59,596 nucleotides of DNA from a virus, in IMG/VR virus record IMGVR_UViG_3300021962_000117, positions 1 through 59,596 of that record; one strand, 5' to 3'. Positions 16,136-59,596 of the stretch are shown here, one piece after another (the first letter of the stretch is position 1; the number at the start of each line of letters is the position of its first letter). The position numbers and the translations under genes are program-made. The notes below the pieces were generated by a model. That model searched no databases. It had not been told where the DNA came from and saw only the letters and a list, made by a program, of their open reading frames with translations.

Positions 16136-16807
16136 TTATTGATATAATCTAATATTATCTGCTGATTTTAAGGTACTGCTCTGATATTGAGTAGTACCTT
16201 TTTTATATGGTAAAATAGATTCTATATCATCAAGAGCTACCCTGAGATATTCTGGTTTTAGAATGTATATCTCTCTTTTTTTATTGTTGATATTATCTTC
16301 ATATTCGTAATTTGTAACTTCTTTTGCACAATCAGTTACAGTAACGTAACTTTGAAGGCGAATGTCCCAGAAAGAAATGCTATGATTGCTTTCTACCCTT
16401 AACCCAGATCTAAGAACTATTCCACCAATACTATTTTTAACTTCTTTTGATTCGTAATGGTGAGCCGAACCTATATTTTCATATGATCCATATTTTTCTA
16501 ATAAATAACGATCAAATTCATTTTGGGATAATGGCCATTCTGATTGAATGTTTAAAATATTATTAGATAGAAGAACAATCCAATCTAAATTAGAATCGTC
16601 GTAAAACTTATATGCTACATTATCAGGTCTTTCGTTTCCAAGAATAATATAAGTTTCAAAGAAAGCCGAGTTTCCTATAATATCTGGTCTCAATTTTGCT
16701 CTTCTAAAGAAGTTTTTTACGTTAATATATTCTGATACGTTTTTGGTATCAGAAAGTCTATTGACATAAGAAAAATCGGGAAGATTTCTAAAATAGGTCT
16801 TTGGCAT
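16136..16807 (-). CDS. gp53: Baseplate wedge subunit gp53
   Basis: 223 residues: KTYFRNLPDFSYVNRLSD, VKNFFRRAKLRPDI, NERPDNVAYKFYDDSNLDWI, NIQSEWPLSQNEFDRYL. This is the gp53 family, a structural wedge protein of the T4-like baseplate. Its stop codon abuts the gp32 stop with no bases between, and its last codons also encode the gp32 terminator hairpin. The start is two bases from the gp48 stop. Confidence 0.92.
   Translation of the reverse strand: MPKTYFRNLPDFSYVNRLSDTKNVSEYINVKNFFRRAKLRPDIIGNSAFFETYIILGNERPDNVAYKFYDDSNLDWIVLLSNNILNIQSEWPLSQNEFDRYLLEKYGSYENIGSAHHYESKEVKNSIGGIVLRSGLRVESNHSISFWDIRLQSYVTVTDCAKEVTNYEYEDNINNKKREIYILKPEYLRVALDDIESILPYKKGTTQYQSSTLKSADNIRLYQ
16170..16204 (+). terminator. 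gp32 terminator embedded in gp53 coding sequence
   Basis: AAGGTACT / AGTACCTT forms an 8-bp stem around a 15-base loop, followed by T. It acts on + strand transcripts leaving gp32 but lies entirely in the 3' coding end of the convergent gp53. Confidence 0.8.
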
Positions 16808-38729: not shown

Positions 38730-39344
38730 ATGAAATCTGATTTTTATATAGATAGAGTTAGTAAAGAAGAAGTAAAAGATCTTCTTTATAATCATCATTA
38801 TCTTAAAGATGAGTCCAAAGATTTCAAATCGGGGTATAACTATGGGCTTTTTAAACGGACTGAGTGGGAGTGTCCTCTTAGGATTGGCAAGTGTCTTGGC
38901 GCTTGCATTTTTACTGGTCTCCCTGTTCCAGAAATTGCCAGAGGAGCATTTGGGTTAGAAAGAAATCAACAGGAAGGTTTATTTGAACTTTCCCGTCTTT
39001 GTATGGATCCAGAAGTACAGAAAGAAGAATATAATATTACCTCTTGGTTTGTAAGTCGTTGTATAAGGAGGTTTAGGAAAGATGCCACAGTTCGTGCTAT
39101 TCTTAGTTACGCTGACTCTAATCACCACACTGGAACTATATACCGAGCTTGTAATTTCAAATATTATGGGTTAACAGATCCAAAAAAAGACTTTTATTAT
39201 GCTGATGGCACTAAACATTCTCGTGGCAGTGTTAGAGGATCTGAAGGAGAATGGAGAGATAGAAGCCGTAAACATAGGTATCTAATGGTTTTTGAATTTG
39301 GGTTAAATGTTTTGTGGAAAGAAGAAAGTTATGGTGTAATATAG
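38730..39344 (+). CDS. Mom-like acyltransferase-fold protein (possible DNA modification)
   Basis: 204 residues. EIARGAFGLERNQQEGLFEL, SRLCMDPEV, TSWFVSRCIRRFRKDA and ILSYADSNHHTGTIYRACNF resemble the GNAT-fold Mom family of phage Mu, which modifies adenine in phage DNA to block host restriction. The YAD-x-x-x-x-H-x-G-T-x-Y-x-A-x-x-F pattern is the main support. If active it could protect this phage's DNA. The C-terminus (KHRYLMVFEFG) is also Mom-like. A related N-acetyltransferase of other function cannot be excluded. Confidence 0.72.
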   Translation: MKSDFYIDRVSKEEVKDLLYNHHYLKDESKDFKSGYNYGLFKRTEWECPLRIGKCLGACIFTGLPVPEIARGAFGLERNQQEGLFELSRLCMDPEVQKEEYNITSWFVSRCIRRFRKDATVRAILSYADSNHHTGTIYRACNFKYYGLTDPKKDFYYADGTKHSRGSVRGSEGEWRDRSRKHRYLMVFEFGLNVLWKEESYGVI

Positions 39345-39405: not shown

Positions 39406-42400
39406 ATGGGTCTTTCCAGGTTAGATAATTTTTTAAAGAATGCTCGTGGTAACATTCTTTATGTAAACCCAAACGATTTAGATTCTACAGATAGTATCGA
39501 GAATCAGGGCAATTCACTTACTCGACCATTTAAATCTCTGCAGCGTGCTTTAATTGAAGCCGCAAGGTTTTCATATCAGAGAGGTTTGAATAACGATAGG
39601 TTTGGTCAAACCACAATTCTTTTATATCCTGGCGACTATCCAATTGATAACCGTCCTGGTTGGATTCCTGATGGAGTTGGCAACTTCAAATTACGAAATG
39701 GGTCATCCAGTAGTAATTTTTCTCCATGGGATTTAACAACCAACTACGATTTAACAGTTGCAGACAACGCACTGTATAAAATGAACAGTATCCACGGTGG
39801 AGTTATCATTCCCCGTGGTACATCTATTGTAGGTATGGATCTCAGAAAAACTAAGATCCGTCCTTTGTATGTTCCTAGTTCCACCAACGATAATATAGAA
39901 AACTCTGCCATCTTCCGTGTTACTGGAGGATGTTACTTCTGGCAGTTCTCTTTCTTTGATGGAGATCCCAACGGTCAAGTATATACTGATTATACTGATA
40001 CTAAGTTTGTTCCAAATTACTCCCACCACAAATTAACTTGTTTTGAGTATGCTGATGGATCCAATAATGTAAGCATCGCTGATGCTTTCATGACTTATAG
40101 TGCAGACAGAACTGATCTGGACATGTACTATGAAAAGGTTGGTCTTGCATATGGACAAGCTAGTGGAAGATCTGTTGAGCCAGATTATCCTTCTAGTGGA
40201 TTAGACATTCAACCGAAGGTTGATGAGCACCGTATTGTTGGATCTACAGGCATTTCTGTAGGTATTTCCAGCATTCGCTCTCATGATGGTTCAAGCACTA
40301 GCGTATCCACAACAAATATTACAGTAACAACTGATTCTGCAATAGATGGATTAGATGTAGATACACCTTTTAGAATTACAGGAGTTGTTGAAGATGGATA
40401 TAATGGTCAATATGTTGTCAGTGAAAAATTAAGTTCCACAGAAATTAAATATCAAGTCCAAAATCCACCTATTGAACCTTCTCCTACTTCAACTGGAGCA
40501 AATCTTTCACTGCAGTCTGATACTGTAACATCAGCATCTCCATATATTTTCAATATATCGATGAGATCTGTCTTCGGTATGAATGGACTTCATGCTGATG
40601 GATCAAAGGCAACTGGATTTAAATCCATGGTTGTTGCCCAATTCACTGGTATTGGATTGCAAAAAGATGATAGAGCATTCGTATTATACGATACAACCAC
40701 CGGAGAATGGAAAGATTCTACCAGTCCCGGAAATGCTACCTTAAGTAATAATTCCAAAGCAGTATACAAACCAAATTACGCAAACTACCATATCAAATGT
40801 TCCAATAATGCGTTCATTCAGAACGTATCTATTTTTGCTATTGGATATGCAAATCAATTCCTTTGTGAATCTGGTGGTGATATGTCAATCACCAACTCAA
40901 ACTCCAACTTTGGTGCTAAAGCACTTTTATCAAAAGGATTTAGAAAAGAAGCATTTTCTCAAGATGATATAGGATATATTACGCATATTCTTCCACCTAA
41001 AGAAATTGAAAATGAAAATGTTAATATTGAATTTAACTCTATTGATGTATCCAAAACTATTAGCGTAGGAAATAGCACAAGACTCTATCTCTATAATGAA
41101 ATAAACTCTGATGTTCCTCCAACCAATATTATTGATGGATACAGATTTGGTGCTAAATCCGGAGATACTCTTGATGTATTGATTTCCGTTGGTGGATCAA
41201 TTACTAAGTATTCTGGATCCATTTATATGGAAGGATCTAATGTTACTTCCAAAAAACTTTTCCGTGTCAATCAAAGTTCTGCAGGAGTCAATAGCGTCAC
41301 GAGTAATGTTGTTGAACTTACAGCAGCACATACATTATCAAACGGAGAGAGTATTAGAATTATATCCGAAAATGGAAGTCTTCCTGATGGATTAATTCCA
41401 AATAGAATTTACTATGCGATTACTAGCACATCGTTCTCTGGAATCACCACAAACACTCAGTTGAAAATTGCAAAAACACTGAACGATGCGGTAGCTGGAG
41501 AGCCAGTACCAATCAACGAAAAAGGTGGATCGATTAAAATCGAAAGCCGTGTGTCTGATAAGAGTGCCGGAGATCTTGGGCATCCACTTCAATACGACTC
41601 CGTAGAATCTCAATGGTACGTTACTGTTGGTTCCGATAATACAATTTATCCTACCATTGTTGGACTTGGAACAACTGCTCTTGGATCTGCGACTCCAAGA
41701 ACTTTCTTCACCAGACAACCAGATACAAGAAATGCAAATGACACTGTATACAGGGCTCGTTATGTAATTCCCGCTAATGCTGGAGGAGTTGTAGCAAGAC
41801 CACCTCAGGAAGGATTTATTCTTCAAGAATCAAACACTTCTATCGGTTCTACTACAGGAGAAGTTGAAACTTACTTTGGAACAGGTTCTATTAATAACGT
41901 AAATCAATTAAGAAACTTTAGATTAATTTCTAATGTTTCTTGGAGTGGTGGAAAGGTATATGTCACAACAGAACTTCCACATAACATCGAAGTTGGACAT
42001 GAAGTAGAACTTTATAATATTAAGAGCACTTCAAATACAGCAGGAACTCAAAATGTAGGATATAATAAATTATGGACTGTAAGCGAAGTTCCACATGCGA
42101 AGCAATTTGTTTTTGAATCTTCTGCTGATGAAGGTTCGTTTACAAACAATACAAATCAAAGAAATACAAATCTTCCATATTTCAAGAGAAAGAGATTCAA
42201 AGATACCTATGTTGTTTATAGGGTTGAAGAGGCAAAACAATATATTGCAGGTAGACAAGATGGTATCTACTATTTGACTTTCTTAAATTCCAGCAACTCT
42301 CCGACAGTAACACCATTTTCTACTAATAGATATCTCCAAAGTGTACAGGAATTTTTCCCACAAAACAATAAAGATAATCCTGTTTCTGATCCATTAGAAG

Positions 42401-45240
42401 CAAGATCCTTTGCAACTTCAGATCTGATTGGTAAAGTTGTTGTAAATGATGTTCAAAGTAGCATAACAAAAGAAACCATAAACAAACTTGTCGATGATAC
42501 AAAACTTGGTATTGGAGTTACTGATGTTATATCTTATGATCCAGGATTAGTTGGATCGGCACAAACTCATACACTTAGAACTCATGTAGATCATGGTCTC
42601 AATAGAATAACAAGAGTTAGTATTGCTAATAGTGGATCGGGATATGGATCTGGAATATCTGGAAATGTATACAATGCCACTCTTACTGGACTTGCTGGTT
42701 CCACAACAGGGCAATATGCTACAGCTAAAATTACTGTAGATGCCGCTGGTGGAATTACAGATATTAAGATCATGGATGGTGGTAGTGCTTATGCTGAAGG
42801 TAATACTCTTGCCATTACAGGCATCAGCACCTTTGCTCCATATTCACAGGCAACCGTTACTGTCAGCAAGATTTACAATAATATTGGAGATGTTATCGAA
42901 GTAGTTGGAATTAAGTCCGAATCAAATCATAAGTTTAATAGACTGTATAAGATTTCGGAAATTCCTGTAGGATCAGCTAGAAGTGTTACTGTTTTCTCCT
43001 ACGAATCAATTTCAGGAGTTACAACAACAGGTTTAAATGCCAGCTTTACATCTAACGCATATGCATACCTTACCGGACCCGCTTTGTCGATATCTTCTTT
43101 AGACTATAACAACACTGCTGGTATCGCTACTATCGTCACTGCGTCTAGACATGGACTTTCTGTTGACTCTAAAGTAAGAATTAATAGTTCCACAACTCTG
43201 TTTAATGGAGAATTCATTGTAAAGAGAAAGATTGACTTAGTTACTTTCTCTGTCGGCATTGGAAAATCTATTGCACCAACTTCTCTCTCAGGGACAGCGG
43301 AAGTATTTAAAACAGGAAGAACTTCTAGGGGTGGAGTTGTTAATGGTGATAATGAGAACCTGAATGGAAGAATGTCAATCGGTTACGCTGGCATCACAAC
43401 AACATTAGGATCTGCTATTGCTACGGCAACTGCGGAAAATATTAATATTACAAATGTAGGAAATCTCGATATCAACATCGGAGACTATCTGATGATTGAT
43501 AATGAAATCGTCAGAGTTAAAACAAATGTACCAAGTACTCCAACCAATCCTATAAATGTCTTCCGTGGTGTACTTGGAACAAGGGCAACAACACACTCAA
43601 CAAATTCCATTGTTACTAGGGTAAATGTTCTTCCTGTCGAACTGAGAAGACACTCTATTATGCGTGCTTCTGCACATACTTTTGAATATGTTGGATTTGG
43701 TCCTGGAAACTATTCTACTGCTTTCCCAGATAAACAAGATCGCTCTATTACTCCTGATGAAGAACTTCTAGCTCAATCTACTAGAGAAGATGGTGGAATT
43801 AACTTCTACACAGGAATGAACGATAGAGGAATTTCTTATGCTGGTAACAAGAAACTTAGTACTGTTACTGGACAAGAAGAAATCTTTGATACTCCTATCC
43901 GTACTGTAACTGGTGATGATATTGGAGTAATTCCAAACATCAACGTCATTAGTCCAATCGAAGGAATTTTCACACGTTCTATTAGAGTTGAAGGAGGAAC
44001 AGATAATAGCGCGTCATCCGAATTCAATGGTCCAGTAATCTTTAGTAATAAGATTACTTCTACATCTGAAAAAGGAATTGAAGGTGCTTCATTCTTCATT
44101 CAAGGTGATGCAACTGTTTCTAGAAAATATACTGTTGGAATTGCAACACCAGTTCTTTCTGGCACTCCTGGAGACGTAGTATACTTCGACAATCCATCTG
44201 CAGGTGGATATATTGGATGGGTCTATACTTCAAATCAAGACTGGTATCGTTTCGGCAATGTAAGTCTTTCTAAGAATCTTAACATCGCTCTGTTTGATCA
44301 GGTTGGAATTGCAACAACATCCCCAGGAGTCAACAGACTTCAAATAGGATCTGGTTCCAATTTATTTGCAGTAGATACCAATGGAGTTGGAATTGGAACA
44401 AGCGCAAATCTTTACAAACTAAATGTTCGTGGAAATACTAATATTTCTGGAACTTTATATGCTGGATACTTTGCAGGTGACGGATCTGGTATTACTAACC
44501 TCAACGCAGCTGCGCTTGGTTGGACTCAAGTTACAAATGGAATTTATAATTCAAATCTAACAAGAGTCGGTCTTGGAACAACAAACCCAAGATTTATCAC
44601 TGAAATTGGAGCTGTTGGAACTGGAGCAACAACGTTACATGTTAATGGATATGCTAACTTCGTTGGTTTCCTTTCTGCCACTAACCTAAGAGTTAGTGGA
44701 ATGCTAACGGCAAATGCATTTGACTTTAATTCTACTAGTGGTCAAATCAATGCTGGTGTCGGAACATTCACGAAGATTGTAGTTGGAACCGCAATTTCTA
44801 CATTCGGATCCAATGTCGGAATGGGTACAGAAACACCAAGAGCGAAACTTGACGTTGAAGGATCTGCTAGATTTAAATCATATTCCGAAGGTGTAGAGAT
44901 TCTTGATATCAGTTCTGGTGTAGTAACGGTAGACTTGTCTAAGGCAAATAACTTCACTTTAGAAGTTGATGCTGTTGTTGAGAAATTTGAAATTCTCAAC
45001 TGCCCATCAGATGCTACTTCTTGGATGGTCAAAATTGATCAAAACTCTACAGGTGGTTATTCCGTTGGCATTACTACATTCGTAGACAGTGGTGCCAATC
45101 CAATTAATCTCTATTGGCCAGGTGGAGGAGTTCTTCCTGGAGTGACAACTGAAGCATCAAGAACAGACATCTACTCGTTCAAAACGTTTGATGGCGGAAC
45201 AAACTGGTACGGATTCGTCGGAGGTCAGAACTTCTTATGA
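39406..45240 (+). CDS. Giant virion structural protein, tail/baseplate fibre type
   Basis: 1944 residues starting MGLSRLDNFLKNARGNILYV, NPNDLDSTDSIENQGNSLTR. The first 550 or so residues read like a right-handed beta-helix (pectate-lyase-like) with GGVIIPRGTSIVGMDL. The middle holds repeated beta domains, including a Gly-rich module (GSGYGSGISGNVYNATLTGL and MDGGSAYAEGNTLAI). The last third carries short fibre repeats of the kind VGIGT and GDGSGITNL. Proteins starting this way are standard in cyanomyoviruses as virion structural proteins. It overlaps the next start by ATGA. Confidence 0.82.
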   Translation: MGLSRLDNFLKNARGNILYVNPNDLDSTDSIENQGNSLTRPFKSLQRALIEAARFSYQRGLNNDRFGQTTILLYPGDYPIDNRPGWIPDGVGNFKLRNGSSSSNFSPWDLTTNYDLTVADNALYKMNSIHGGVIIPRGTSIVGMDLRKTKIRPLYVPSSTNDNIENSAIFRVTGGCYFWQFSFFDGDPNGQVYTDYTDTKFVPNYSHHKLTCFEYADGSNNVSIADAFMTYSADRTDLDMYYEKVGLAYGQASGRSVEPDYPSSGLDIQPKVDEHRIVGSTGISVGISSIRSHDGSSTSVSTTNITVTTDSAIDGLDVDTPFRITGVVEDGYNGQYVVSEKLSSTEIKYQVQNPPIEPSPTSTGANLSLQSDTVTSASPYIFNISMRSVFGMNGLHADGSKATGFKSMVVAQFTGIGLQKDDRAFVLYDTTTGEWKDSTSPGNATLSNNSKAVYKPNYANYHIKCSNNAFIQNVSIFAIGYANQFLCESGGDMSITNSNSNFGAKALLSKGFRKEAFSQDDIGYITHILPPKEIENENVNIEFNSIDVSKTISVGNSTRLYLYNEINSDVPPTNIIDGYRFGAKSGDTLDVLISVGGSITKYSGSIYMEGSNVTSKKLFRVNQSSAGVNSVTSNVVELTAAHTLSNGESIRIISENGSLPDGLIPNRIYYAITSTSFSGITTNTQLKIAKTLNDAVAGEPVPINEKGGSIKIESRVSDKSAGDLGHPLQYDSVESQWYVTVGSDNTIYPTIVGLGTTALGSATPRTFFTRQPDTRNANDTVYRARYVIPANAGGVVARPPQEGFILQESNTSIGSTTGEVETYFGTGSINNVNQLRNFRLISNVSWSGGKVYVTTELPHNIEVGHEVELYNIKSTSNTAGTQNVGYNKLWTVSEVPHAKQFVFESSADEGSFTNNTNQRNTNLPYFKRKRFKDTYVVYRVEEAKQYIAGRQDGIYYLTFLNSSNSPTVTPFSTNRYLQSVQEFFPQNNKDNPVSDPLEARSFATSDLIGKVVVNDVQSSITKETINKLVDDTKLGIGVTDVISYDPGLVGSAQTHTLRTHVDHGLNRITRVSIANSGSGYGSGISGNVYNATLTGLAGSTTGQYATAKITVDAAGGITDIKIMDGGSAYAEGNTLAITGISTFAPYSQATVTVSKIYNNIGDVIEVVGIKSESNHKFNRLYKISEIPVGSARSVTVFSYESISGVTTTGLNASFTSNAYAYLTGPALSISSLDYNNTAGIATIVTASRHGLSVDSKVRINSSTTLFNGEFIVKRKIDLVTFSVGIGKSIAPTSLSGTAEVFKTGRTSRGGVVNGDNENLNGRMSIGYAGITTTLGSAIATATAENINITNVGNLDINIGDYLMIDNEIVRVKTNVPSTPTNPINVFRGVLGTRATTHSTNSIVTRVNVLPVELRRHSIMRASAHTFEYVGFGPGNYSTAFPDKQDRSITPDEELLAQSTREDGGINFYTGMNDRGISYAGNKKLSTVTGQEEIFDTPIRTVTGDDIGVIPNINVISPIEGIFTRSIRVEGGTDNSASSEFNGPVIFSNKITSTSEKGIEGASFFIQGDATVSRKYTVGIATPVLSGTPGDVVYFDNPSAGGYIGWVYTSNQDWYRFGNVSLSKNLNIALFDQVGIATTSPGVNRLQIGSGSNLFAVDTNGVGIGTSANLYKLNVRGNTNISGTLYAGYFAGDGSGITNLNAAALGWTQVTNGIYNSNLTRVGLGTTNPRFITEIGAVGTGATTLHVNGYANFVGFLSATNLRVSGMLTANAFDFNSTSGQINAGVGTFTKIVVGTAISTFGSNVGMGTETPRAKLDVEGSARFKSYSEGVEILDISSGVVTVDLSKANNFTLEVDAVVEKFEILNCPSDATSWMVKIDQNSTGGYSVGITTFVDSGANPINLYWPGGGVLPGVTTEASRTDIYSFKTFDGGTNWYGFVGGQNFL

Positions 45241-47291: not shown

Positions 47292-48977
47292 ATGGCAATC
47301 AATAAGAATTTTGTCGTCAAGAACGGTTTAGAAGTAAACAATACTTTACTTGTTGCCGACTCAGCAAATAATAAAGTTGGTATCGGTAGTACGATTCCTG
47401 CCTTTGAATTGGATGTCATTGGCGGTATCGGTGCTACCGATATTATTATTTCCGGTTTAGCAACAGTAACTACAGAACTGAATGTTGGTACTAATGGTTC
47501 AGTTCTTACTGTTCTTGGAATTGGCGGATCTGTTGGTGTTGGAACTGCTCTACCAGCATATCTCTTAGATGTCAGAGGAACTGGGGCAGGAACAACTTCG
47601 CTTTATGTTCAAGGTGATGCGGATATTAGCGAAAGACTCTATGCTAAGAGTATAGAAGTTATCGATTTAACCGTAACTGGAGTAGGAACAATTCCTACTA
47701 TCGACGTTACTGCTGCAACAATCGACAATCTTCAAGGAACTAACCTAAGTTTTAGTGGAATTGCTACAGTCTCTCAAGACTTATATGTCAGCAGAAATGT
47801 AAACATCACTGGCATAACCACACTTCAAGATAATTTATTTGCGACTAACCTCCAGATTGATAACGTTACCGTATCTGGAATCACTACAACAAATACTATA
47901 AGTATTGGGTCTACTCAAATTGTATCCAATGAGAGACAACTTCAAAATATTGCTTCTCTTGATGCAACAACCACCGCGACAATAGAAGCAGCAGTAGCTA
48001 ATGCTCCTAATACTCAAACAGATCTAAATGTAACCGGTATTACTACTTTAGGTGATGATACTTCTATTGGTGGAAATCTGAGTGTAACTGGATTCAGCAC
48101 GATTAGTGGTTATCTTGACATCAACAATAGTGCAGATATTAGCGGAGACCTAAGCGTATCTGGAGTAGTCACTGCTACGGCTTTTGTTGGAGATGGATCT
48201 CAACTTACTGGTGGTGGAATCGGAATCCAATCAACAGGATTTTCTGTTGGATATGGAATTACGACTCTTAATTTTAGAGGATCTGCGGTTTCTACCGTAG
48301 AATCAAATGAAGTTCTTGGCATTACAACAATTACTCTTGTTGGCGGAAGCGGCGGTGGTGGAGCTGCTGGCGATGATGGTCAAATTCAATATGCCACTAG
48401 CGGAAGTCTTGATGCTTCACCAGATTTGGTATTTGATGGAGGAACAATCAACATCAAGGGAACTGATGTTGGTATTGGTTCAACCGCTATCTATGCATTA
48501 AATACAGGAGCACAATTCTTTACTGTAGACACTTCCGATGTTGGAATTAAGACTGCAAGTATCGGCATCGGCACAACTGCTCCATTATACAAACTGCATG
48601 TTGTTGGTGGAGGAACTTCTCTCGGTGGAGATGTCTTCATCAACGAAGATGTTGTAATAGGCGGAAATACAAATATTACTGGAGTATGCACAGCACAAGA
48701 TTTTGATTCTCTTTCTGACGTAAACTATAAGACAAATATAGAAACAGTATCAGGTGCATTAACTAAGATAGAACAGATGCGTGGAGTTCGATTTGATTGG
48801 AAAGACTCCGGTCAACCATCTTTCGGTGTTGTTGCACAAGAACTTGAACAGGTTCTTCCGGAACTGGTCAGAGGAAGTGATCCAAGAACCGTAAATTATA
48901 ATGGCATTATAGGTGTTTTGATTGAGGCTATTAAAGAACTTAGTGAGGAAGTCCGTACTTTGAAAGGTGAAAATTGA
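47292..48977 (+). CDS. Fibre protein with C-terminal S74 self-cleaving chaperone
   Basis: 561 residues. Most of it is made of short fibre repeats (VGIGS, GVGTALPAYLLDV, SGITTLGDDTS). The last 95 residues are an intramolecular chaperone of the S74 peptidase family: LSDVNYKTNIETVSGALTKI, GVRFDWKDSGQP, FGVVAQELEQVLPELV, VNYNGIIGVLIEAIKEL. The Ser of LSD and the Lys of YKTNI are placed as in the self-cleavage Ser-Lys pair. The chaperone helps the trimeric fibre fold and is usually cut off. Confidence 0.9.
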   Translation: MAINKNFVVKNGLEVNNTLLVADSANNKVGIGSTIPAFELDVIGGIGATDIIISGLATVTTELNVGTNGSVLTVLGIGGSVGVGTALPAYLLDVRGTGAGTTSLYVQGDADISERLYAKSIEVIDLTVTGVGTIPTIDVTAATIDNLQGTNLSFSGIATVSQDLYVSRNVNITGITTLQDNLFATNLQIDNVTVSGITTTNTISIGSTQIVSNERQLQNIASLDATTTATIEAAVANAPNTQTDLNVTGITTLGDDTSIGGNLSVTGFSTISGYLDINNSADISGDLSVSGVVTATAFVGDGSQLTGGGIGIQSTGFSVGYGITTLNFRGSAVSTVESNEVLGITTITLVGGSGGGGAAGDDGQIQYATSGSLDASPDLVFDGGTINIKGTDVGIGSTAIYALNTGAQFFTVDTSDVGIKTASIGIGTTAPLYKLHVVGGGTSLGGDVFINEDVVIGGNTNITGVCTAQDFDSLSDVNYKTNIETVSGALTKIEQMRGVRFDWKDSGQPSFGVVAQELEQVLPELVRGSDPRTVNYNGIIGVLIEAIKELSEEVRTLKGEN

Positions 48978-49018: not shown

Positions 49019-49453
49019 ATGGCAATCAAAGTCTCAGGAACAACTGTTATTGATGACAGTAGGAGTATTATAAATGTTGGTGTGGCGACTGTTGGTCTGC
49101 TCACAGCAACAAGTACTCAGACCGAAAACTTAAATGCGAGTGGTATAACAACCATCGCTAACTTAAATTCTACCTCTTCGTCTTCTACGAATTTAAATGT
49201 TAGCGGTATTTCGACGCTTGGAATTGCCCAAGCAACTTCTTATACTGGAGATGGATCACAACTTTCCGGAATTAATGTCGGTGTTACTTCAGAAGGATCT
49301 CTGATTGGTTATGGATTTACCACAATTAACTTTGTTGGTACAAGTAACAGTATCAGAGCAGAAGGCACTACCGTCCACGTTAAAATTTCCGGTGGCGGTG
49401 GTGGTGGCGGCTCACCAGCACAGTCTTTCGTTTACGCATCAATCTTCGGTTGA
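49019..49453 (+). CDS. Short fibre-repeat structural protein
   Basis: 144 residues: MAIKVSGTTVIDDSRSIINV, then repeats with LNASGITTIANLN and LNVSGISTLGIA, then GDGSQLSGINVGV, a Gly run and QSFVYASIFG. It repeats the fibre-unit vocabulary of the preceding S74 fibre (GDGSQLTGGG, GYGITTLNFRG) without the chaperone. Probably a related, truncated fibre or a fibre tip. Confidence 0.75.
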   Translation: MAIKVSGTTVIDDSRSIINVGVATVGLLTATSTQTENLNASGITTIANLNSTSSSSTNLNVSGISTLGIAQATSYTGDGSQLSGINVGVTSEGSLIGYGFTTINFVGTSNSIRAEGTTVHVKISGGGGGGGSPAQSFVYASIFG

Positions 49454-49489: not shown

Positions 49490-49861
49490 ATGGCTGCACC
49501 AAATTTAGCTAACACATCAAACATTCTTGCAAGACAGACCGCAGTTGGTCTCAATACTACTGCTTATGTTGGAGTTGTAACCAACACTGCAGACTCGGGC
49601 AAGGTTTTAAGAGTAGACAATATCAGAATTACCAACGTACAAGGGACATATGCAACTAACGTAACCGTTGGTTGGTCTACTGTTGGTGCTGCAACAACAT
49701 ATAGAGTTGCATCCACAATGCCAGTTCCAGCGGATTCTGCTCTGATCGTCGTAGACAAAGACAGCGGACTTTACTTAGAAGAAAATCAGAATATCATCGT
49801 AAAGGCAGATAACGCCGATTACTTAGAAGTTCTTGTTAAGTATGAAGAACTTAGCGCATAA
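49490..49861 (+). CDS. Small conserved virion structural protein
   Basis: 123 residues: MAAPNLANTSNILARQTAVG, beta-rich with TNVTVGWSTVG and ALIVVDKDSGLYLEENQNI, a single compact domain. An AGGAG site (AACAGGAG) lies upstream, and a TATAAATT late-type motif at 49459-49466. Similar small proteins lie among the tail genes of cyanomyoviruses; exact place in the virion unknown. Confidence 0.75.
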   Translation: MAAPNLANTSNILARQTAVGLNTTAYVGVVTNTADSGKVLRVDNIRITNVQGTYATNVTVGWSTVGAATTYRVASTMPVPADSALIVVDKDSGLYLEENQNIIVKADNADYLEVLVKYEELSA

Positions 49862-49916: not shown

Positions 49917-52900
49917 ATGAGCGCACCTCAAGGCGGTTATATTGGAAACACACCCCAAAATTGGGAACCAGGCAAAAGACCTGGTGTGTGGAAAGCTAAG
50001 GATATTCAGGCACTCCAAAAAGAGGGAGAGTTAACTCGTACAGCTTGGAGTTTAAAATCTGCCAAATATCGACCACCGTTCAAGTCATTTGATGTAAAAC
50101 AATACGAAAATCAACCTACCTGCGTTATTCTCAATAGCGCAGGTACAAAAATGTATGTAGTTGGACGACAGAATGTAAAAATTCTTCAGTTCAGCCTTTC
50201 TACTGCATGGGATATTACATCTGCTACATTTGATAATGTAGACTTTGATATTAGAGATTATGAATCGTCTCCAACTGAACTTGCTATTAATGAAACTGAT
50301 GATAGAATCTTCTTCGTTGGTACCGAAAGAGGAAATCTCTATCAAATCGATCTGACCACTGCTAGTGATCTTTCTACAGGAACTATCGGAAGTTTTGCTC
50401 CTTTACAAAGTGCAGTTCCCGATATCGATGGAATTTACTTCAGTTCTGGTGGCGGAAGCCTTTTCGTAGTATCTAGAACTGATGATAGCATCACCACATT
50501 CACTTTATCTACTGGATTTGATGTAACAACAATTACAAACAAATTCCAATCAACTTCAAAGAAAACTGTAGGTCTTTCCACAAACCTCGTCCTGGATCCA
50601 ATCACCCGTATGCGTGCCACCTTGAACGGTGTTACGGATATTGGTACTCCACATGGACAGGGTGACTGGAATGATGCCAGAACTACTAGTGTATGGTTTG
50701 ATCCTACAAACGTAAGACCAAAGTCCGTTTCTTTCAATGATGATGGAACCATTCTCTTCATTCTTGGTGACAATGGAGAACTGTATACTTGGTATCTTGG
50801 TACAGCATACGTTCCAAACTCCGGTTCTTTCAATAGATTCGAAACAACCAATCCACTGATTCTTGACGAAACATTAGAAAGCCCTCAGTCTCTCTTTATG
50901 AGACCTAATGGTTTCAACTTCTATATTGCAGACTCCAATGGAATTATTGCACAGTATGATCTGCCTGGAGCGTTTAACGTTGATAGACTTTCCTATAATT
51001 TTGAACGTAGACTTTATGTAGGAAACAGTCCACAGGACGTTCAAGTTTCTCCTGATGGTAAGACAATGTTTGTTCTTACCACTGATGGAAATTACAGACT
51101 CAAAATGTATAGGACTTCTCGTCCATTTGATTTTGGTACTTTGTTGACTGATCCCAGAGATTTTGTCTTCAGCTATAATGGAGAATATCTCTATATTTGC
51201 GATAACTCAAATATTTTCCGCCATGAACTTTCAACTCCTTGGGATATCAAAACCGCAACATACACAGGAAATAAGTTCAGAACAAGTGATTCTCCTTTAA
51301 GTGAAGGAAACCTTGAAGGTATCACTTGGAAAAATGATGGAACAAAATTGTGGATTTGTGGATATGGTCAAGATAGAATTTATGAGCTTGACCTTGCTAC
51401 CCCATGGGACTTAACAACAATATCATATAATCTTGTTTATCAGAGCACTACAAGCGAAGGAACACCAAGAGATATTGGCATTTCTACAGATGGTACAACT
51501 CTTTATTATGCTGGTGAAAGATATATTAGAATGTTCTATCTGACAACACCATGGACTCTTGCAGATGGAGTTAGTCAGTCAGATTACACTGTAGATACTC
51601 AAAGTCTCAGAGGTCCAGGTTATTATTATATTAGATCTGCAAAATGGTCTAGAGATGGTAAGAGAATGATCATCTCTTATGGAGATGGTAACAGTTGGAA
51701 TATAAGTGTACACCAGTACCGTACACAGTGGGCATTCCACCTAGACAATAACAGCCATGATAACCCACAAGGTCTCGCATTTAGCGAAGATGGCACATAT
51801 ATGTACACTACTGATTATGATGACCATAGAGTATTCCAGTGGCATCTTTCAGAACCTTGGGAACTAAATTCTGCTGGTTTTGTAACCTATTTCCAACTCA
51901 ACGATACAAGCAGAGAGAACCACTCTGGTCAAATTTACAATAGATATCCAAATAATCCAAGAGGAGTTGGAATCAGTAGCGATGGTGGCAAACTCTTTGT
52001 TCAGGGAAATAGCATCGTTTCTCAATTCTCACTGACAACATCTTTCTATGTTGACTCTGTTGGTGTAGGTACCACTGGATATTATTCCCAGGATGATGAC
52101 GGCGACATGAGAGATCTGTGCTTCTCCTCTGATGGTAGAAGACTGTTCATGATCGGTGAAGGATATCAGAGACTATATGAGTTCCCTCTAAAAAATCCTT
52201 ATGATATTGACCCAACAACATCATTACGACACCCTGATATTGTGGCTGTCGTTGGTATGGGCACATCCACGTCTATTTCTCCAAGTGGACAGTATGGAAC
52301 AGAAAACGATATTAACGCTTGTGCCATCAGCACCGCAGGCGATTATTTCTATATTACTGGCCTTTATAACTATTCCGTATATCGTTATTCCTTAGGAATT
52401 GCAAACAGTATTAAGTCGATGTCTCATGACTCGACATTTAAATTCTGGAATAGCTATTTGGGAGATAAAGAATATTATCCTAGAGGACTTGCATTCTCCA
52501 CAGATGGCAGAAACATGTATGTTGCTGGCAGTTATTTTGGTGGTGAAGTCAAGCAGTATAGATTAAGAAACGCATGGAGTATTTCTACTACTAGCGATCT
52601 TCAGAATCCAACCGTTTCCTTTGGTGGCACAATGCCACTTTGTCAGTTTAAGTATGAAGAGTCTCTGGATGTTGGCAAGCCTCAATATGGCAACTTTGAG
52701 TCTCAAGAACAGAACATGATTAACATCATTCAAAGAAATGATGGATATCCTCAAATTAAGGGTGTTGGATTTGGATCAACTGGACGCGAACTTTATGTAA
52801 TGGGTTGGAATGAGGGTCTTATGAGAATGTACCCTCTCAGCACTTCTAATCATGTTTATTCAGCTGGTTTCTCTTCAGAAGTAGCATACGATACTTATTA

Positions 52901-55900
52901 CTATCCTGGTGTTGGTCTTGTTACTTCATGGGGATGGAGAACTGGACAGGCTGGAGCAGGAAACTGGTATGGCGGAGATCCACAACAATGGAGAGATGGT
53001 TACAGCGAATCTGAAGCTCGCGGACTCTATGTAAGACCTGATGGTCTTAAGTTCTATATTGTTGGTTCATCTGCAGATAGAGTATATGAATATAACATCT
53101 CTACTGCAACTCCATGGAACATTGATACTCTTGGTTATCACACCATGACTGATTATGGTCGTGGAACATATAGCAATTTTGGTATTGATATCTACGGTTA
53201 TGGTAAGTCTGGTCTTGGAACTACTACTGCATATCTGGGTGCAGCAGGAATTTATGAAGCTTCTGGTATTGAATGGAAACCAGATGGATCCAAGATGTAC
53301 ATCACTGATTCCTACTCTAGATCAATTTGGCAGTTCGAAGTTGGTATTCCTTGGAATGTTGGTACTGCAAACACAGGACAGGAGACAAGATACTATAGAC
53401 GATCTGAGCAAGGTGGAGATCCAGGAAACAGCGGCGGTGTAGGATTCTCTACCGTTGGTGTGGCGAAGTCTTTCATGTTGGACCTCAATTGGAATAATAA
53501 TACTGCTGGTGGTCGAGCACTTGAATATCAACCACGATCTATGAGATTCAACCTTGACGGTACTTTAATGTACGTCATTGGTGTAGGATCCGATAGACCA
53601 TTCGTATTTGAACTGGATACTCCATGGGAAATTGACACCGCAAGATATAGAAATCAAAAACTCACCACCCAATTCCAAAGAACTAATGCTGATGGAACTG
53701 GATTCCCTGGTATTACAACTGTAGAGGGCAATCCATATGGTATGGCTTGGAGTAGAGATGGTAAGCACCTCTATATTACAGGCAATAATGGTTATGTTTA
53801 TGACTTTGAAAATGCTCTTGCATGGAACACTGATTACGAGACAGATTACAGTGTTCAGGCTGGATATGGCAACAGTATGCACTTCTTCGAAAGTGGATTT
53901 AACAGAAAAGCATTCCCATCTGGTATTACTACTGCAACAGACGTTCAGTATAATCCAGACATGGATAAGATGATTGTTGTTGGATACTCCAACTCTACTG
54001 GTTCTGAAGTCAAGCAATATGGAACTGGAACATCTCTGGGAAGAGGTGACTATCAAGGAACCTTAGCTCTTGGTCATGTAAGCACTGGACAATCATACAT
54101 ATTCCAACAGTTTACTGGATCAGACGGATCTATTCGTGGATCTGCATTCAGTACAGATGGCAAGTACTATTATCATGTTGGAAACTCTCGTGATAGAGTA
54201 TTCAGATATGAACTTCAAGTTCCTTGGAACATTAATTCGTTTATATTCGGATACGATCCAGCTCGCGTTGGTTACGGTACAACTTCTGATAGTGGAACCG
54301 TTGGTGTTACCTCCTTCTATGTTGGAAGTCAAGAAGGCAATCCATATTCCATGACTTTCAACTATGATGGAAGTAAGATGTACATTGGTGGCGCAAACCA
54401 TCGCGTATATCAATATAATTTACCACAAAATCATTATTGGGGCATTACTAGTGCCGTTTATTCGACAAATATGTATGCTGGTAGTGAAGGAACAGAGATT
54501 CAATCTATTGCATTCTCCACATCTGGTAAGAGATTGTATGTTGCCACTCACAGCAACAGCTGGGTAAGACAGTATTGGCTTGATAATGCATGGGAAGTAA
54601 ATACCAGCAATGCTGGTGGAGAGGGTAACCTCAAATTCGGTACTTTTGGAGAAAATCCAAGATCGTTTAAGTGGAATAATGATGGAACAAAACTGTTTGT
54701 ACTTAGTGATGCTAAGAAAGAAGTTATTGAGTTCAATCTGCATTATCCATATGACATCTTAAGATCTCAGGAGCATGTTTCCGCTGCAGGAACAACACCA
54801 GTTAATAATGTTGTTGGTCTTGGAACAACTGGATTTAGTGTCTCTGATGCAGATGCGACCAACCTTGGTGGACTTGCGTTTAATGCTGATGGAACCAAGA
54901 TGTATGTTGTTGGTTTTGGTTCTACTACCATTACCCAATATGGTCTGTCAACTGCATTCAACGTAAGAAGTGCTTCCTTCGAGAAGACTAAGGGTCTTTA
55001 TCCTGATGGTTTACTTCCAGAAGAAATTGGATTCAACTCCACTGGTTCCAAGATGTATATCTTGGATAGAAAGTTAGACTATCTCGTAGAATATAATCTT
55101 GGTACTAATTATGATATTGATACAGCAGATTTAGGACACGTTGGTTTTGCATCTACCGCTACATATAGCGTACTGAACTTTGATACCGTTACTGCTGGTA
55201 TTGCTCTTACGAATAATAATACCGATCTTGTACAAGTCAACTTAACATCTGGCGCAGCTAGCTGGAGTCAAAGTGCTATTGCTGCTGGTTCTAGTTTCGG
55301 TGCTCCATTCACAATGGAATATCGAGTCAGAGCAAATGGAAGTGGCGATTATCAGAAGATGGTCGGTCTTACCACCATTGGCGATCCTGCTACTTACACT
55401 GGCGGACCTGGCCAGCAAGGTACAATCTCTCATGGTTTCTATCACCAAAACCACAACAACTTAGGTGGTGGCGGAATTACCATTAGAACAAAACACCACA
55501 CAAATCCATCTCAAAGTGTTGATGCTCTTGGAAGTGGTTGGCGTGTTGGTAATGAAGATATCTTCAGAATTTCTTACGGTGTTGATGGATATGTTAGACA
55601 CTTCATCAACAAGGTAGAAGTTCAAAGAGTCTATGTTGGTGCTGGCATGTCCTACCATGTTGGTGCATACTTCGATACCAATGGTGCTCAGTTAGATGAC
55701 ATCCGCATCACTAATACTGGATTTACTACATCCTCCGATGGATATGGTAACGCATTCTACATGGGTAGATTTGAAAGTGACCCAAGAGGATTCTGCATGT
55801 CTGACAATGGTATCCACCTGAATATGGTTGGAAACCAACAGAATAGAATTTACAGATTCATTCTTGACGACGACTATAGAGTTGGTAGTGCTCTGAGTGT

Positions 55901-58900
55901 TGGTATCGATACTTACAGAGGAGTCCATTCTAATGGATATGGTTCTGTTGGCAACCTTGAAGGTACCACTCGCGCTGTTGGATTCAACACCAATGGTACT
56001 AAGGCATTCATCCTTGGAGACAGTGATAGACTCTGGCAGTTTGATTCTGCTATTAAGTATCAACCAAACAACGTACATGGTCCAGAAGGTTATTACTTTA
56101 ATACCTGGCCAGGTGACTTCGGTTCTCCATATGAAGTCAAGTTTAGACCAGATGGCAAGGTCATGTATGTATATGAAAGTGGAAACAGACTCTTTACATA
56201 TACATTAGATAGACCTTGGGATCTCACATCCGTAAATCAAGATCAAACCGATAGTAGAGCTTATAGATCTACACCATCTTCGGAGTATACATTTGATTAT
56301 GAAGTTTACACTTTTGATGTTAAGCATGACACTCAAGATACTATTTTCTTCACATCCAGATTTGGAAATGTGTATCAAATGCCAGCAAACCCACGTTGGT
56401 TGACTCCTACAGATCAACAAATTCAACACCTTGGATTTGCAAGTGAAGGTAAGATCGCATATGTAACTGGCATTCAATCTGCAGCGATTACAAGATACGA
56501 TCTTTCTACTCCATACGATATTAGAACTGCAGCAAGAAGTAATGATGGTCAGCAGTTCTATACCTATAGTGAAGTTCAAAAGAACCCACTTAAGTATAGA
56601 AAGCAAAAGTTTGATCCATTGTACAATAACAATAGCGGAAATAACGCTATTTGGAGAGAGCAAAACTATCGTAGCCTTTCATTCAACTACGATGGAACTA
56701 AGTTGTATGCTCTTGGACAAGATACTGATACTGTATTCCAGTATGATCTTTACAAGCCATATGACACAACAACAAGAGTTTCCCTTGGTGGTACTTACTA
56801 CATTGGTTATCAAGAAATTGAACCAGAAGCAGTTGACTTCAAGCCAGATGGATCGAAGATGTATATTGTTGGAACAAGTTCTGACAGAATTTTCCAATAC
56901 GATCTTGGTCAACCATGGGAAGTTGCTAGTGCCTCTTACAATGGAACTCTGACAAGAACAACTTCTCCTGCTCTTGATTATGCATATGCATCTCTGATTA
57001 CTGAGGATACAGAACCAAGAGAGTTTATCTTCAACTATAATGGAACTAAAGGTTTCATGATTGGTACACAGAGAAATACTGTTTATGAGTACAATCTGTC
57101 AACTCCATGGGATGTTGAAACTCTGGTAGCAACTGCAAATACCTTCACCGTTGTTGATTATGAAAGAGCATCACAAGGTCTCTTCTTCAAACCTGACGGT
57201 TCTGAGATGTATGTTGTTGGTTATGGTACCACTGCTACATATACCTCCGGACTCACCAGTGCAATGGTTTCCGCTGGTATTGCAACAACCATGGGCAACC
57301 GTCCTGGTAATGTATTCCAGTTCTCCCTTGCATCTAATTGGAATATTACATCTGCATCGTTTACAACTAGCTTCTACGTTGGCGATCAAGAGAATCAACC
57401 AACTCAGGTCAACTTTAGTTCTGATGGAACAAGAATGCTTATCATCGGTCAAGAAAGAGACCGTATGCAGACGTATGATCTGACAACTGCATGGCAACTT
57501 GACACTGCGGTTTATGAACCATTCAACTATAACAATTATAATGATAGTCAAGGTTCCTCTGATAACAGACCACAATCTTTTGGAATTAGTACAACAGGTA
57601 AAGACCTCTACATGGTCGAAGCGAATAATGAAAGAATCAGACAGTATGCACTTTCTTCGCCATATCAAGTAAGAAACCTTGATACAACCCCAAGAGCTTT
57701 CTACTTCAAACCAGATGGTCTCAGAGTTTACATTGTAGGTTCCTCACATGCTAGAGTATATTCATTCACTCTGACCACCGCATATGATCTGAGAACAATG
57801 ACCTTCGATGGTGGTTACTTCTATGTTAGCCCCGAATTAGGCACTCCAACTGGCATCTTCTTTGAGGATGATGGTCTTACAATGTACGTTAGTGGACATA
57901 GTGGCAGATTACATCAGTTCAACTTAAATACAGCATGGGATATCAAGAGCACCAAGAACTATAGAGAAACTGGTAGTGGAAATTATTACAACTCTATTGC
58001 TGGTATTGCTACAACATCATTCTCACTCACCAATAACCGTGGTTCATCGCCATATGGTCTTGCATTCAGCACTGATCGCTCTAGATTCTGGTGGTTAGAT
58101 GGTGCTAATAGCAACAACGCTGTATTTGAGCATTATAGACAAACAACCACAGGTATTACTAGTGCATACTGGTATGCTAATTACGATAACTATGATCAAT
58201 ATCCTCAAATTGATCGCAGAGGTTATGTTGATGGAGACGCTGACGACAGACTGTCGTTCCACATGAGACATATGTATCCAAATAGTCCAGAATTTATTGG
58301 ATTTGGATCTGAAGGTAAGATCATGTATGTCATGAACGACTCTCATGATATGATTCACCAATATCATCTCCCAACTCCATATAGATTAAACTTCTATACA
58401 GAAAGGCCATGGGATTGCGGATTCTCTACTGATGGTCAATATTTCTATGTCTTAGGTGACGACACCAAGAGAATTCATCAAATTGGTGTTGCTGGTACTG
58501 GAGATGCATATCATCTTCATGGTCATGGAAATGGAAGAGGTTACGATATTGTACACTCCACTTATGATGAAGCAGATTACCTCAATCTTGATATTGATAT
58601 TGAGAATGATTTCAGATCATTCGCCTTCAAACCTGATGGCACAAAACTTTATGCATTAGGTCATCAAAGAAAGAGACTGTATGAATACACTCTCTCTACT
58701 CCATGGAAGGTTAATACTGCTGGACTTGGAACAACAAGTTACTACATGTATTACACAGACCAAGAGGATAATCAACCTGGTGGCACTGTGCCAAACTTAG
58801 GTTCACCTTATGGTCTGAGATTCCATCCAGATGGAACCTATATGTACTGTGTTGATTGGGATAACTATAGATTCTTACAGTGGGAGTTCCAAACTCCTTG

Positions 58901-59596
58901 GGATATCAGCACCTTAGGATTTAAGACTGATTACTACATTGGAGATTTCCGTTATCACTTTAATAGCGTAAACCAACAGTTGAGACCAAGAACTCTTGGA
59001 TTCAGCACCTATGGCGATAAGATGTTCTTTATTGATGGCAATCAAAGTCATGTGGTTTCCTTCACTCTTGATACTGCATGGGAAATTGGTTCTGTTGGTG
59101 TTGGCACAACATTCTTCTATGTTGGTAATACGGAAGGCAGTCCATATGCACTTGGATTCTCTACTGACGGCACAAGATTCTTCGTTGCTGGTCATGATAG
59201 AAAACTGCTTCAGCAGTATGACATGGGCAACCAGTCCACTGCTCCAGGTATTTCCTCTGCATGGAACGTTGGTATCGCAACTACAGCACTTTGGCATGGT
59301 AGAAAATGGATTCCTGGTGCTGGCGATGGTATGAATGGTATTGGTAGATCAATGTCTCTTGAAGGACCAAGTATCGCAGGAACATTCTTTATTGGACCTT
59401 GGGAAACCAATCCAAGATCTCTACACTTCTCTCCAAATGGAGATAGATTCTGGGTTGTTGGACAACAATCCAATTATGTTCGCGAATTTAGATTCGACAT
59501 ATCTAAATGGGACTTGAGATGGTCTAATAATAATAGTGTTCTGACGGCAGGTAGTACAACATGGCAAACCAATCATCCAACTTACGGTCATGCCGA
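49917..59596 (+). CDS. Giant beta-propeller-repeat protein (3' end outside window)
   Basis: Open for 9,680 bases with no stop, so at least 3,226 residues, continuing past the window. Start MSAPQGGYIGNTPQNWEPG with AAAGGAG upstream. After about 60 residues the rest consists of some 45 units (counted by eye, mean about 65-70 residues) of the form F-x-x-D-G-x-K-M-Y-V-V-G, x-x-I-x-Q-Y-x-L-S-T-P-W-D-I-x-T-A, which is the strand pattern of YVTN/NHL-type beta-propeller blades. An inserted non-propeller domain at about residues 1755-1930 looks lectin-like. At six to eight blades each this makes roughly six propellers in a row. Probably a fibre or host-contact protein. Confidence 0.85.
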   Translation, partial: MSAPQGGYIGNTPQNWEPGKRPGVWKAKDIQALQKEGELTRTAWSLKSAKYRPPFKSFDVKQYENQPTCVILNSAGTKMYVVGRQNVKILQFSLSTAWDITSATFDNVDFDIRDYESSPTELAINETDDRIFFVGTERGNLYQIDLTTASDLSTGTIGSFAPLQSAVPDIDGIYFSSGGGSLFVVSRTDDSITTFTLSTGFDVTTITNKFQSTSKKTVGLSTNLVLDPITRMRATLNGVTDIGTPHGQGDWNDARTTSVWFDPTNVRPKSVSFNDDGTILFILGDNGELYTWYLGTAYVPNSGSFNRFETTNPLILDETLESPQSLFMRPNGFNFYIADSNGIIAQYDLPGAFNVDRLSYNFERRLYVGNSPQDVQVSPDGKTMFVLTTDGNYRLKMYRTSRPFDFGTLLTDPRDFVFSYNGEYLYICDNSNIFRHELSTPWDIKTATYTGNKFRTSDSPLSEGNLEGITWKNDGTKLWICGYGQDRIYELDLATPWDLTTISYNLVYQSTTSEGTPRDIGISTDGTTLYYAGERYIRMFYLTTPWTLADGVSQSDYTVDTQSLRGPGYYYIRSAKWSRDGKRMIISYGDGNSWNISVHQYRTQWAFHLDNNSHDNPQGLAFSEDGTYMYTTDYDDHRVFQWHLSEPWELNSAGFVTYFQLNDTSRENHSGQIYNRYPNNPRGVGISSDGGKLFVQGNSIVSQFSLTTSFYVDSVGVGTTGYYSQDDDGDMRDLCFSSDGRRLFMIGEGYQRLYEFPLKNPYDIDPTTSLRHPDIVAVVGMGTSTSISPSGQYGTENDINACAISTAGDYFYITGLYNYSVYRYSLGIANSIKSMSHDSTFKFWNSYLGDKEYYPRGLAFSTDGRNMYVAGSYFGGEVKQYRLRNAWSISTTSDLQNPTVSFGGTMPLCQFKYEESLDVGKPQYGNFESQEQNMINIIQRNDGYPQIKGVGFGSTGRELYVMGWNEGLMRMYPLSTSNHVYSAGFSSEVAYDTYYYPGVGLVTSWGWRTGQAGAGNWYGGDPQQWRDGYSESEARGLYVRPDGLKFYIVGSSADRVYEYNISTATPWNIDTLGYHTMTDYGRGTYSNFGIDIYGYGKSGLGTTTAYLGAAGIYEASGIEWKPDGSKMYITDSYSRSIWQFEVGIPWNVGTANTGQETRYYRRSEQGGDPGNSGGVGFSTVGVAKSFMLDLNWNNNTAGGRALEYQPRSMRFNLDGTLMYVIGVGSDRPFVFELDTPWEIDTARYRNQKLTTQFQRTNADGTGFPGITTVEGNPYGMAWSRDGKHLYITGNNGYVYDFENALAWNTDYETDYSVQAGYGNSMHFFESGFNRKAFPSGITTATDVQYNPDMDKMIVVGYSNSTGSEVKQYGTGTSLGRGDYQGTLALGHVSTGQSYIFQQFTGSDGSIRGSAFSTDGKYYYHVGNSRDRVFRYELQVPWNINSFIFGYDPARVGYGTTSDSGTVGVTSFYVGSQEGNPYSMTFNYDGSKMYIGGANHRVYQYNLPQNHYWGITSAVYSTNMYAGSEGTEIQSIAFSTSGKRLYVATHSNSWVRQYWLDNAWEVNTSNAGGEGNLKFGTFGENPRSFKWNNDGTKLFVLSDAKKEVIEFNLHYPYDILRSQEHVSAAGTTPVNNVVGLGTTGFSVSDADATNLGGLAFNADGTKMYVVGFGSTTITQYGLSTAFNVRSASFEKTKGLYPDGLLPEEIGFNSTGSKMYILDRKLDYLVEYNLGTNYDIDTADLGHVGFASTATYSVLNFDTVTAGIALTNNNTDLVQVNLTSGAASWSQSAIAAGSSFGAPFTMEYRVRANGSGDYQKMVGLTTIGDPATYTGGPGQQGTISHGFYHQNHNNLGGGGITIRTKHHTNPSQSVDALGSGWRVGNEDIFRISYGVDGYVRHFINKVEVQRVYVGAGMSYHVGAYFDTNGAQLDDIRITNTGFTTSSDGYGNAFYMGRFESDPRGFCMSDNGIHLNMVGNQQNRIYRFILDDDYRVGSALSVGIDTYRGVHSNGYGSVGNLEGTTRAVGFNTNGTKAFILGDSDRLWQFDSAIKYQPNNVHGPEGYYFNTWPGDFGSPYEVKFRPDGKVMYVYESGNRLFTYTLDRPWDLTSVNQDQTDSRAYRSTPSSEYTFDYEVYTFDVKHDTQDTIFFTSRFGNVYQMPANPRWLTPTDQQIQHLGFASEGKIAYVTGIQSAAITRYDLSTPYDIRTAARSNDGQQFYTYSEVQKNPLKYRKQKFDPLYNNNSGNNAIWREQNYRSLSFNYDGTKLYALGQDTDTVFQYDLYKPYDTTTRVSLGGTYYIGYQEIEPEAVDFKPDGSKMYIVGTSSDRIFQYDLGQPWEVASASYNGTLTRTTSPALDYAYASLITEDTEPREFIFNYNGTKGFMIGTQRNTVYEYNLSTPWDVETLVATANTFTVVDYERASQGLFFKPDGSEMYVVGYGTTATYTSGLTSAMVSAGIATTMGNRPGNVFQFSLASNWNITSASFTTSFYVGDQENQPTQVNFSSDGTRMLIIGQERDRMQTYDLTTAWQLDTAVYEPFNYNNYNDSQGSSDNRPQSFGISTTGKDLYMVEANNERIRQYALSSPYQVRNLDTTPRAFYFKPDGLRVYIVGSSHARVYSFTLTTAYDLRTMTFDGGYFYVSPELGTPTGIFFEDDGLTMYVSGHSGRLHQFNLNTAWDIKSTKNYRETGSGNYYNSIAGIATTSFSLTNNRGSSPYGLAFSTDRSRFWWLDGANSNNAVFEHYRQTTTGITSAYWYANYDNYDQYPQIDRRGYVDGDADDRLSFHMRHMYPNSPEFIGFGSEGKIMYVMNDSHDMIHQYHLPTPYRLNFYTERPWDCGFSTDGQYFYVLGDDTKRIHQIGVAGTGDAYHLHGHGNGRGYDIVHSTYDEADYLNLDIDIENDFRSFAFKPDGTKLYALGHQRKRLYEYTLSTPWKVNTAGLGTTSYYMYYTDQEDNQPGGTVPNLGSPYGLRFHPDGTYMYCVDWDNYRFLQWEFQTPWDISTLGFKTDYYIGDFRYHFNSVNQQLRPRTLGFSTYGDKMFFIDGNQSHVVSFTLDTAWEIGSVGVGTTFFYVGNTEGSPYALGFSTDGTRFFVAGHDRKLLQQYDMGNQSTAPGISSAWNVGIATTALWHGRKWIPGAGDGMNGIGRSMSLEGPSIAGTFFIGPWETNPRSLHFSPNGDRFWVVGQQSNYVREFRFDISKWDLRWSNNNSVLTAGSTTWQTNHPTYGHA

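Follow-up and report, generated by a model that had tools for sequence, protein, structure and literature searches.

To our knowledge, the proteins behind host recognition in cyanophages are largely unknown. Among described receptor-binding proteins, Gp45 of the S. aureus siphophage phi11 is reported to contain a five-bladed propeller closed by an N-terminal strand (PMC4901313), and a ring of this kind thus occurs in a receptor-binding role. At the level of the genome, a survey of marine T4-like phages treats a variable fiber island as a host recognition cluster, earlier described in cyanophages (PMC7029224). A search of the literature by titles and the opening of abstracts, with partial coverage, returned no description of tandem propellers in a cyanophage or of a propeller family in units of five blades.

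The window examined here, a stretch of 59,596 nucleotides, is an entire IMG/VR record (IMGVR_UViG_3300021962_000117), and the 3' end of the giant gene with which it closes lies beyond the contig. Its genes include those for a tail tube cap, tail tube, baseplate hub, gp5-type lysozyme, transaldolase and PhoH. Gene content and order, together with DNA matches, place the virus with the T4-like cyanophages, close to S-SM2 and Bellamy. Its proteins from the tube cap through the wedge initiator are collinear with those of S-SM2 and Bellamy; past their homologue of the wedge initiator, S-SM2 and Bellamy carry different, shorter and variable fiber or adhesin genes. The genes of the window in this region are:

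39406-45240, + strand: main tail fiber gene, 1,944 aa, phrog_529, retained; 56-57% identity to the S-SM2 and Bellamy counterparts
47292-48977, + strand: fiber/baseplate wedge initiator-like protein with a C-terminal S74 chaperone domain
49019-49453, + strand: 144-aa short fiber-like stub, a relative of Bellamy gene 42
49490-49861, + strand: 123-aa partner gene; 37% identity to Bellamy gene 40
49917-59594, + strand: giant propeller gene, at least 3,226 aa from an ATG start, by open frame and coding phase; 47 blades

The giant gene lies downstream of the main fiber and wedge initiator genes and behind the small gene, in synteny with S-SM2 and Bellamy, and, judged by gene order, it occupies the slot of the variable adhesins in the T4-like cyanophage cassette. 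We infer that this cassette is the same island as the host recognition cluster. A preliminary description, made from the sequence of the window, had proposed that the giant gene may have replaced the long tail fiber genes of T4. This idea did not survive comparison: a PHROG search with three segments of the giant protein at E 0.1 returned no family, fiber families included, which led us to reject a T4 gp34-gp37 identity; the window keeps its own 1,944-aa fiber; and published work reports cyanomyoviruses to be without several T4 tail genes, including g34, g35 and g37 (PMC2984593). A reverse transcriptase, which would have pointed to a diversity-generating retroelement, was not found within this record, possibly a fragment. 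Elsewhere in the window, a Mom-like DNA modification gene (38730-39344, + strand; Pfam Mom E 6.5e-21; phrog_1384) adjoins the main fiber gene and has no counterpart in the S-SM2 and Bellamy stretches compared, and a virion structural protein of 1,248 aa (31773-35519, + strand) carries a PA14 domain (Pfam E 1.4e-12).

The start codon of the giant gene is preceded by ...AAAGGAGACGAAGATG, with an AAGGAG box (ribosome-binding site) just upstream, and 3,226 codons follow without a stop until the frame runs off the contig end; open frames in 20 random sequences matched for size and composition reached 176 codons at most. GC content by codon position was uniform across all 11 blocks of 900 bases (0.26-0.34 at position 3), so that no hidden frameshift was seen, and the single frame open to the contig end that had been read earlier, with a warning about a concealed stop or frameshift, was borne out. 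Megablast against 'phages' found no close orthologue of the giant gene, a plasmid search with residues 1-1200 gave no match, and queries of IMG/VR with three segments found no close relative. The last of these results, and the end of the IMG/VR record inside the gene, would fit a chimera or a sequencing error in the metagenome contig, but the continuous frame with its ribosome-binding site, the regular composition by codon position and the presence of the cassette gene immediately before it leave that explanation extremely improbable.

Third-position GC was 0.30 along the whole length of the giant gene, compared with a mean of 0.20 in five neighboring large genes, and this difference makes the recent import of a non-virion gene conceivable. 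The product might accordingly be an intracellular or secreted scaffold, or an exclusion factor, in the infected cell, and members of the blade family described below are also found on bacterial and archaeal contigs. However, the giant gene sits inside the fiber/baseplate module and is linked to the small gene, and we consider a non-virion protein improbable.

An iterated HMM applied to the giant protein gave 48 matches, which became 47 blades once a split blade (2420/2459) was merged, with the consensus EGSPRGLAFSPDGTKMYVVGNSNDRVYQYDLSTPWDIDT. About 45 diverged blade-like repeats with the signature DGxKMYVVG... had been noted before; the repeats and the signature, which is close to this consensus, stand, and the count is revised to 47. 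Since the HMM was trained on the giant protein itself, a hold-out run was done, in which a model built from 25 blades within residues 1-1740 recovered 19 blades in the remainder and, conversely, a model of 15 blades from the remainder recovered 24 in residues 1-1740; reversed sequences gave 0 and 0 matches, and 40 shuffles gave 1 in total. Pairwise identity among 40 full-length blades averaged 27%, with a maximum of 49%, and Tandem Repeats Finder reported no tandem array in the DNA of the gene. These two results indicate that the expansion is old, as had been suggested, and led us to reject recent slippage as the origin of the blades. The Pfam families SGL and Lactonase exceeded their curated cut-offs (Lactonase PF10282 with 32.2 and 29.3 bits against 21.7, in two of three segments), and their best stretches spanned one to two blades, or ∼30-60 residues. 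NCBIfam showed nothing near its cut-offs, and a sequence-profile search of PDB ranked 1l0q first (E 1e-20).

Residues 1-366 were modeled with AlphaFold2 on an alignment of 56 single five-blade rings from relatives. The model (pLDDT 78, pTM 0.75; mean pLDDT 93-98 at residues 61-200) contained, by DSSP, five four-stranded blades, the last of them completed by an N-terminal strand at residues 55-59, and a loop of low confidence at about residues 222-261. Both the construct and the alignment hold five blades by design, and a larger ring is still compatible with the model. VIA-align with model residues 50-349 placed 3qqz first among solved structures (Z 20.1, rmsd 3.0, 225 residues), followed by the designed Pizza6 and NHL propellers at Z 17; phi11 Gp45 was not among the best 50 rows, an absence that excludes nothing. 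In a viral structure library, the best matches of ring 1 were phage and marine-virus proteins, one of them named baseplate wedge subunit. An 840-aa N-terminal model also had four-stranded blades, though its confidence as a whole was low (pLDDT 65.8, pTM 0.38), and its structure matches were propellers. With the Pfam families, these models support a beta-propeller protein in which ring 1 is predicted to close, in agreement with the fold that the preliminary description had assigned and had proposed to check by repeat detection and structure prediction on the translation.

Two segments of the giant protein found related proteins in 11 and 10 phage records by tblastn. Further relatives were gathered with a degenerate DNA pattern for DGTKM[YF][VI][VI]G, which matched at least 120 stretches in IMG/VR and at least 118 in bacterial and archaeal genomes; all of these loci were chosen by one exact motif, and the sample is not a random one. 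On the viral side, 154 ORFs among the matches listed contained blades, and 113 were closed by stops at both ends. Exactly 5, 10 or 15 blades were present in 96 of these 113 (5 in 53, 10 in 32 and 15 in 11), the others having 2 (2 ORFs), 4 (4), 6 (4), 8 (2), 9 (2) and 13, 14 and 19 (1 each); after removal of near-duplicates, the proportion among the matches listed was 88 of 105. The spacing of the blades followed the same period. Across 42 proteins with 10 or 15 blades, the step from blade 5 to blade 6 ranged from 34 to 160 residues (sd 36), compared with an sd of 1.6 to 4.0 for steps within a five-blade group, and the fifth blade of the relatives scored ∼20 bits lower, blades 5, 10 and 15 being the odd ones. 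In the cellular sample, 44 of the 66 closed ORFs among the matches listed had 5 blades and 8 had 10, with 1 blade in 3 ORFs, 2 in 3, 3 in 3, 4 in 4 and 8 in 1.

These counts of translated repeats support five blades as the unit of the family, in viruses and in cells, and the multiples of five in the relatives are the main evidence for five, rather than the model of ring 1, whose construct holds only five blades. The chain of several propellers that had been postulated gains support in the form of five-blade rings, a unit that the preliminary description had missed. The same unit bears on the possibility that the giant protein is an enzyme, either a lactonase/gluconolactonase or a set of glycan-degrading propellers (depolymerase). 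SGL and Lactonase are indeed its best Pfam families and lie over their cut-offs, but the matching stretches extend over only one to two blades, and Pfam describes Lactonase as 7-bladed whereas this blade family comes in fives; we regard enzymatic activity as very improbable.

Among the matches listed, in loci held to about 15 kb (viral) and 8 kb (cellular), the giant protein had the highest number of blades, its 47 comparing with at most 25 in other viral ORFs and at most 30 in cellular ones. The ORF with 30 blades, open and at least 2,666 aa long, is on an Oceanospirillaceae contig (L241), so that long blade arrays also occur on bacterial contigs. In S-SCSM2R, the baseplate wedge protein gp53 (L005, 7915-10257; 780 aa) contains four matches to the same blade family; the gp53 homologue of the window (16136-16807, - strand) is 223 aa long. 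In S-SKS1, a 1,571-aa unannotated ORF downstream of gp6 (L003, 11707-16422) contains one five-blade group with a weak fifth blade.

Read in units of five, the 47 blades of the giant protein would form nine rings plus two further blades, in the following layout:

49917-50063, + strand: residues 1-49, the N-terminal segment; its GGYIG and PGVW motifs are common to other adhesins; probable anchor, from motif comparison
50064-50969, + strand: ring 1, residues 50-351, five blades, predicted to be closed by strand 55-59 (AlphaFold2 pTM 0.75, VIA-align Z 20.1)
50553-50711, + strand: insertion forming a loop between the third and fourth blades of ring 1, residues 213-265, for the most part of low model confidence (alignment and model)
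51024-51746, + strand: putative ring 2, blades at 370, 411, 463, 514 and 571 (blade matches; strands in the 840-aa model except at 544-606)
51762-52589, + strand: putative ring 3, blades at 616, 679, 728, 796 and 852 (blade matches and 840-aa model)
52752-53810, + strand: putative ring 4, blades at 946, 1031, 1117, 1203 and 1270 (blade matches)
53931-54758, + strand: putative ring 5, blades at 1340, 1403, 1473, 1526 and 1580 (blade matches)
54858-56231, + strand: putative ring 6, blades at 1649 and 1701, then an insert, then blades at 1953, 2015 and 2069 (blade matches)
55125-55772, + strand: 216-aa non-blade insert in ring 6, residues 1737-1952 (gap in blade matches)
56412-57353, + strand: putative ring 7, blades at 2166, 2248, 2301, 2364 and 2420/2459 (blade matches)
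57390-58112, + strand: putative ring 8, blades at 2492, 2549, 2589, 2642 and 2710 (blade matches)
58281-59093, + strand: putative ring 9, blades at 2789, 2830, 2896, 2962 and 3023 (blade matches)
59133-59519, + strand: putative tenth ring, truncated by the end of the contig after blades at 3073 and 3163 (blade matches)

In the N-terminal segment, model confidence was low except for a predicted helix at residues 27-44, where it was moderate. Likeness to a closing blade was highest in the expected phase along the giant protein, with a permutation p of 0.19; the short hops from blade to blade (370-411, 571-616, 2549-2589 and 2789-2830) were scattered over ring positions, and the register was not settled by an HMM of the ring. 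By eye, a degenerate further blade may be present at residues 2106-2165, before ring 7. Searches with the 216-aa insert in Pfam, PDB sequences and phages gave no match; by eye, the insert resembles a jelly-roll or SPRY-like domain.

The small gene upstream of the giant gene recurs in comparable positions. Its homologue in Bellamy, gene 40, precedes the 711-aa gene 41, and Bellamy carries triplets of stub, small gene and large gene. A profile from 15 small-gene sequences matched 65 of 4,462 ORFs at E 0.01, and 13 strong matches (E 1e-15) were found in the blade-pattern loci listed. In 8 of these 13 (L125, L289, L147, L079, L177, L097, L150 and L180, of which L289 is a cellular contig), the small gene stood directly before an ORF with at least 2 blades, compared with 40 of 315 other ORFs of 90-140 aa in the loci listed (p 9e-5); a blade ORF was not next in the remaining 5 copies of those loci. 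Elsewhere, the small gene precedes a glycine-rich or other protein, often a large one, as in Pelagibacter phage HTVC033P and in DSL-LC04, where the small gene is annotated 'putative lectin'. A search of PDB with the profile gave no match. The giant protein itself begins MSAPQGGYIGNTPQ and carries an N-terminal motif, a GGxIG or GYIGxxP start. Of the 39 distinct ORFs that follow the small gene, 15 have this motif, compared with 22 of 2,269 others, a count made among related sequences after the motif had been noticed. A strict model of the longer N-terminus, from four relatives, scored the giant protein at E 0.035, and phmmer with its N-terminus returned nothing convincing.

The position of the giant gene in the variable adhesin cassette, behind a small gene whose relatives stand directly before blade genes or other large tip genes, makes a receptor-binding virion protein the most likely identity of the giant protein. 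Its earlier designation as a host-contact protein is probably right, with indirect support from its place in the fiber/adhesin cassette, the small gene and the N-terminal motif. We consider it likely that this T4-like cyanophage carries the protein on its virion for receptor binding, as a short N-terminal dock followed by a chain of five-bladed propellers; its virion location, its docking through the N-terminus, the ring register beyond ring 1 and a ligand are what we infer. The short N-terminal segment would dock the protein to the tail or baseplate, and the 123-aa protein encoded just upstream would probably take part. The rest would be a chain of five-bladed propellers, nine full rings and the start of a tenth, with the 216-aa insert as an additional domain in one of them. 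A succession of diverged rings could present several binding faces for cyanobacterial surface sugars or proteins, and several faces could provide reach and avidity.

The chain might instead be a passive stalk or spacer, with propeller rods carrying a C-terminal adhesin encoded beyond the contig and blades that bind nothing. The C-terminus does lie beyond the contig, the rings are strongly diverged and no ligand motif was identified; but relatives often consist almost entirely of blade rings and end at the last blade (L133, L174), which argues that the rings can be the functional tip, and we hold a mere stalk to be unlikely. A more far-reaching form of the receptor-binding reading, to which we give a low probability, is a 'string of lectins' of at least 10 diverged five-bladed rings with a common N-terminal plug and small partner, in which each ring could bind a distinct surface glycan and host range would be changed by swapping or diversifying whole rings. 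The analysis points to a testable module of marine viruses, in which a partner gene of ∼120 aa precedes a large tip gene, and to a family of propellers whose blades come in fives on both the viral and the cellular side.

Compared with known systems, the giant gene shares its genomic region with the adhesin-like genes 33, 38, 41 and 44 of Bellamy, gene 41 being behind the homologous small gene, but none of these four has blades by either model, and neither model found blades among the 21 S-SM2 and Bellamy proteins checked. Relatives of the giant protein by tblastn are encoded by Roseobacter phages CRP-9, CRP-13, CRP-2 and CRP-738, Lentibacter phage ICBM2 and Synechococcus phage S-SKS1, where the blade proteins are annotated as hypothetical or have no annotation; the blade models match CRP-9 (3 x 5 = 15 blades) and S-SKS1 (5 blades). 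With YVTN/lactonase-like propellers (S-layer protein 1l0q; Pfam Lactonase and SGL), the giant protein has the SPDGTKMYVVG blade motif in common. The best solved match of ring 1, the C-terminal domain of E. coli YjiK (3qqz, length 243), belongs to a cellular protein and has 10% identity. The likeness to phi11 Gp45 lies in the predicted fold: five four-stranded blades and closure by an N-terminal strand, predicted in ring 1 of the giant protein, are features reported for Gp45. Gp45 is described as having one ring per chain and as forming a homotrimer with a helical stem and a tower, located on the baseplate, that binds a host glycan, in contrast to the giant protein, in which at least 9 putative rings follow one another in a single chain and no stem is seen. 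The parts of the giant protein are thus of known kinds, and a chain of this length is unusual.
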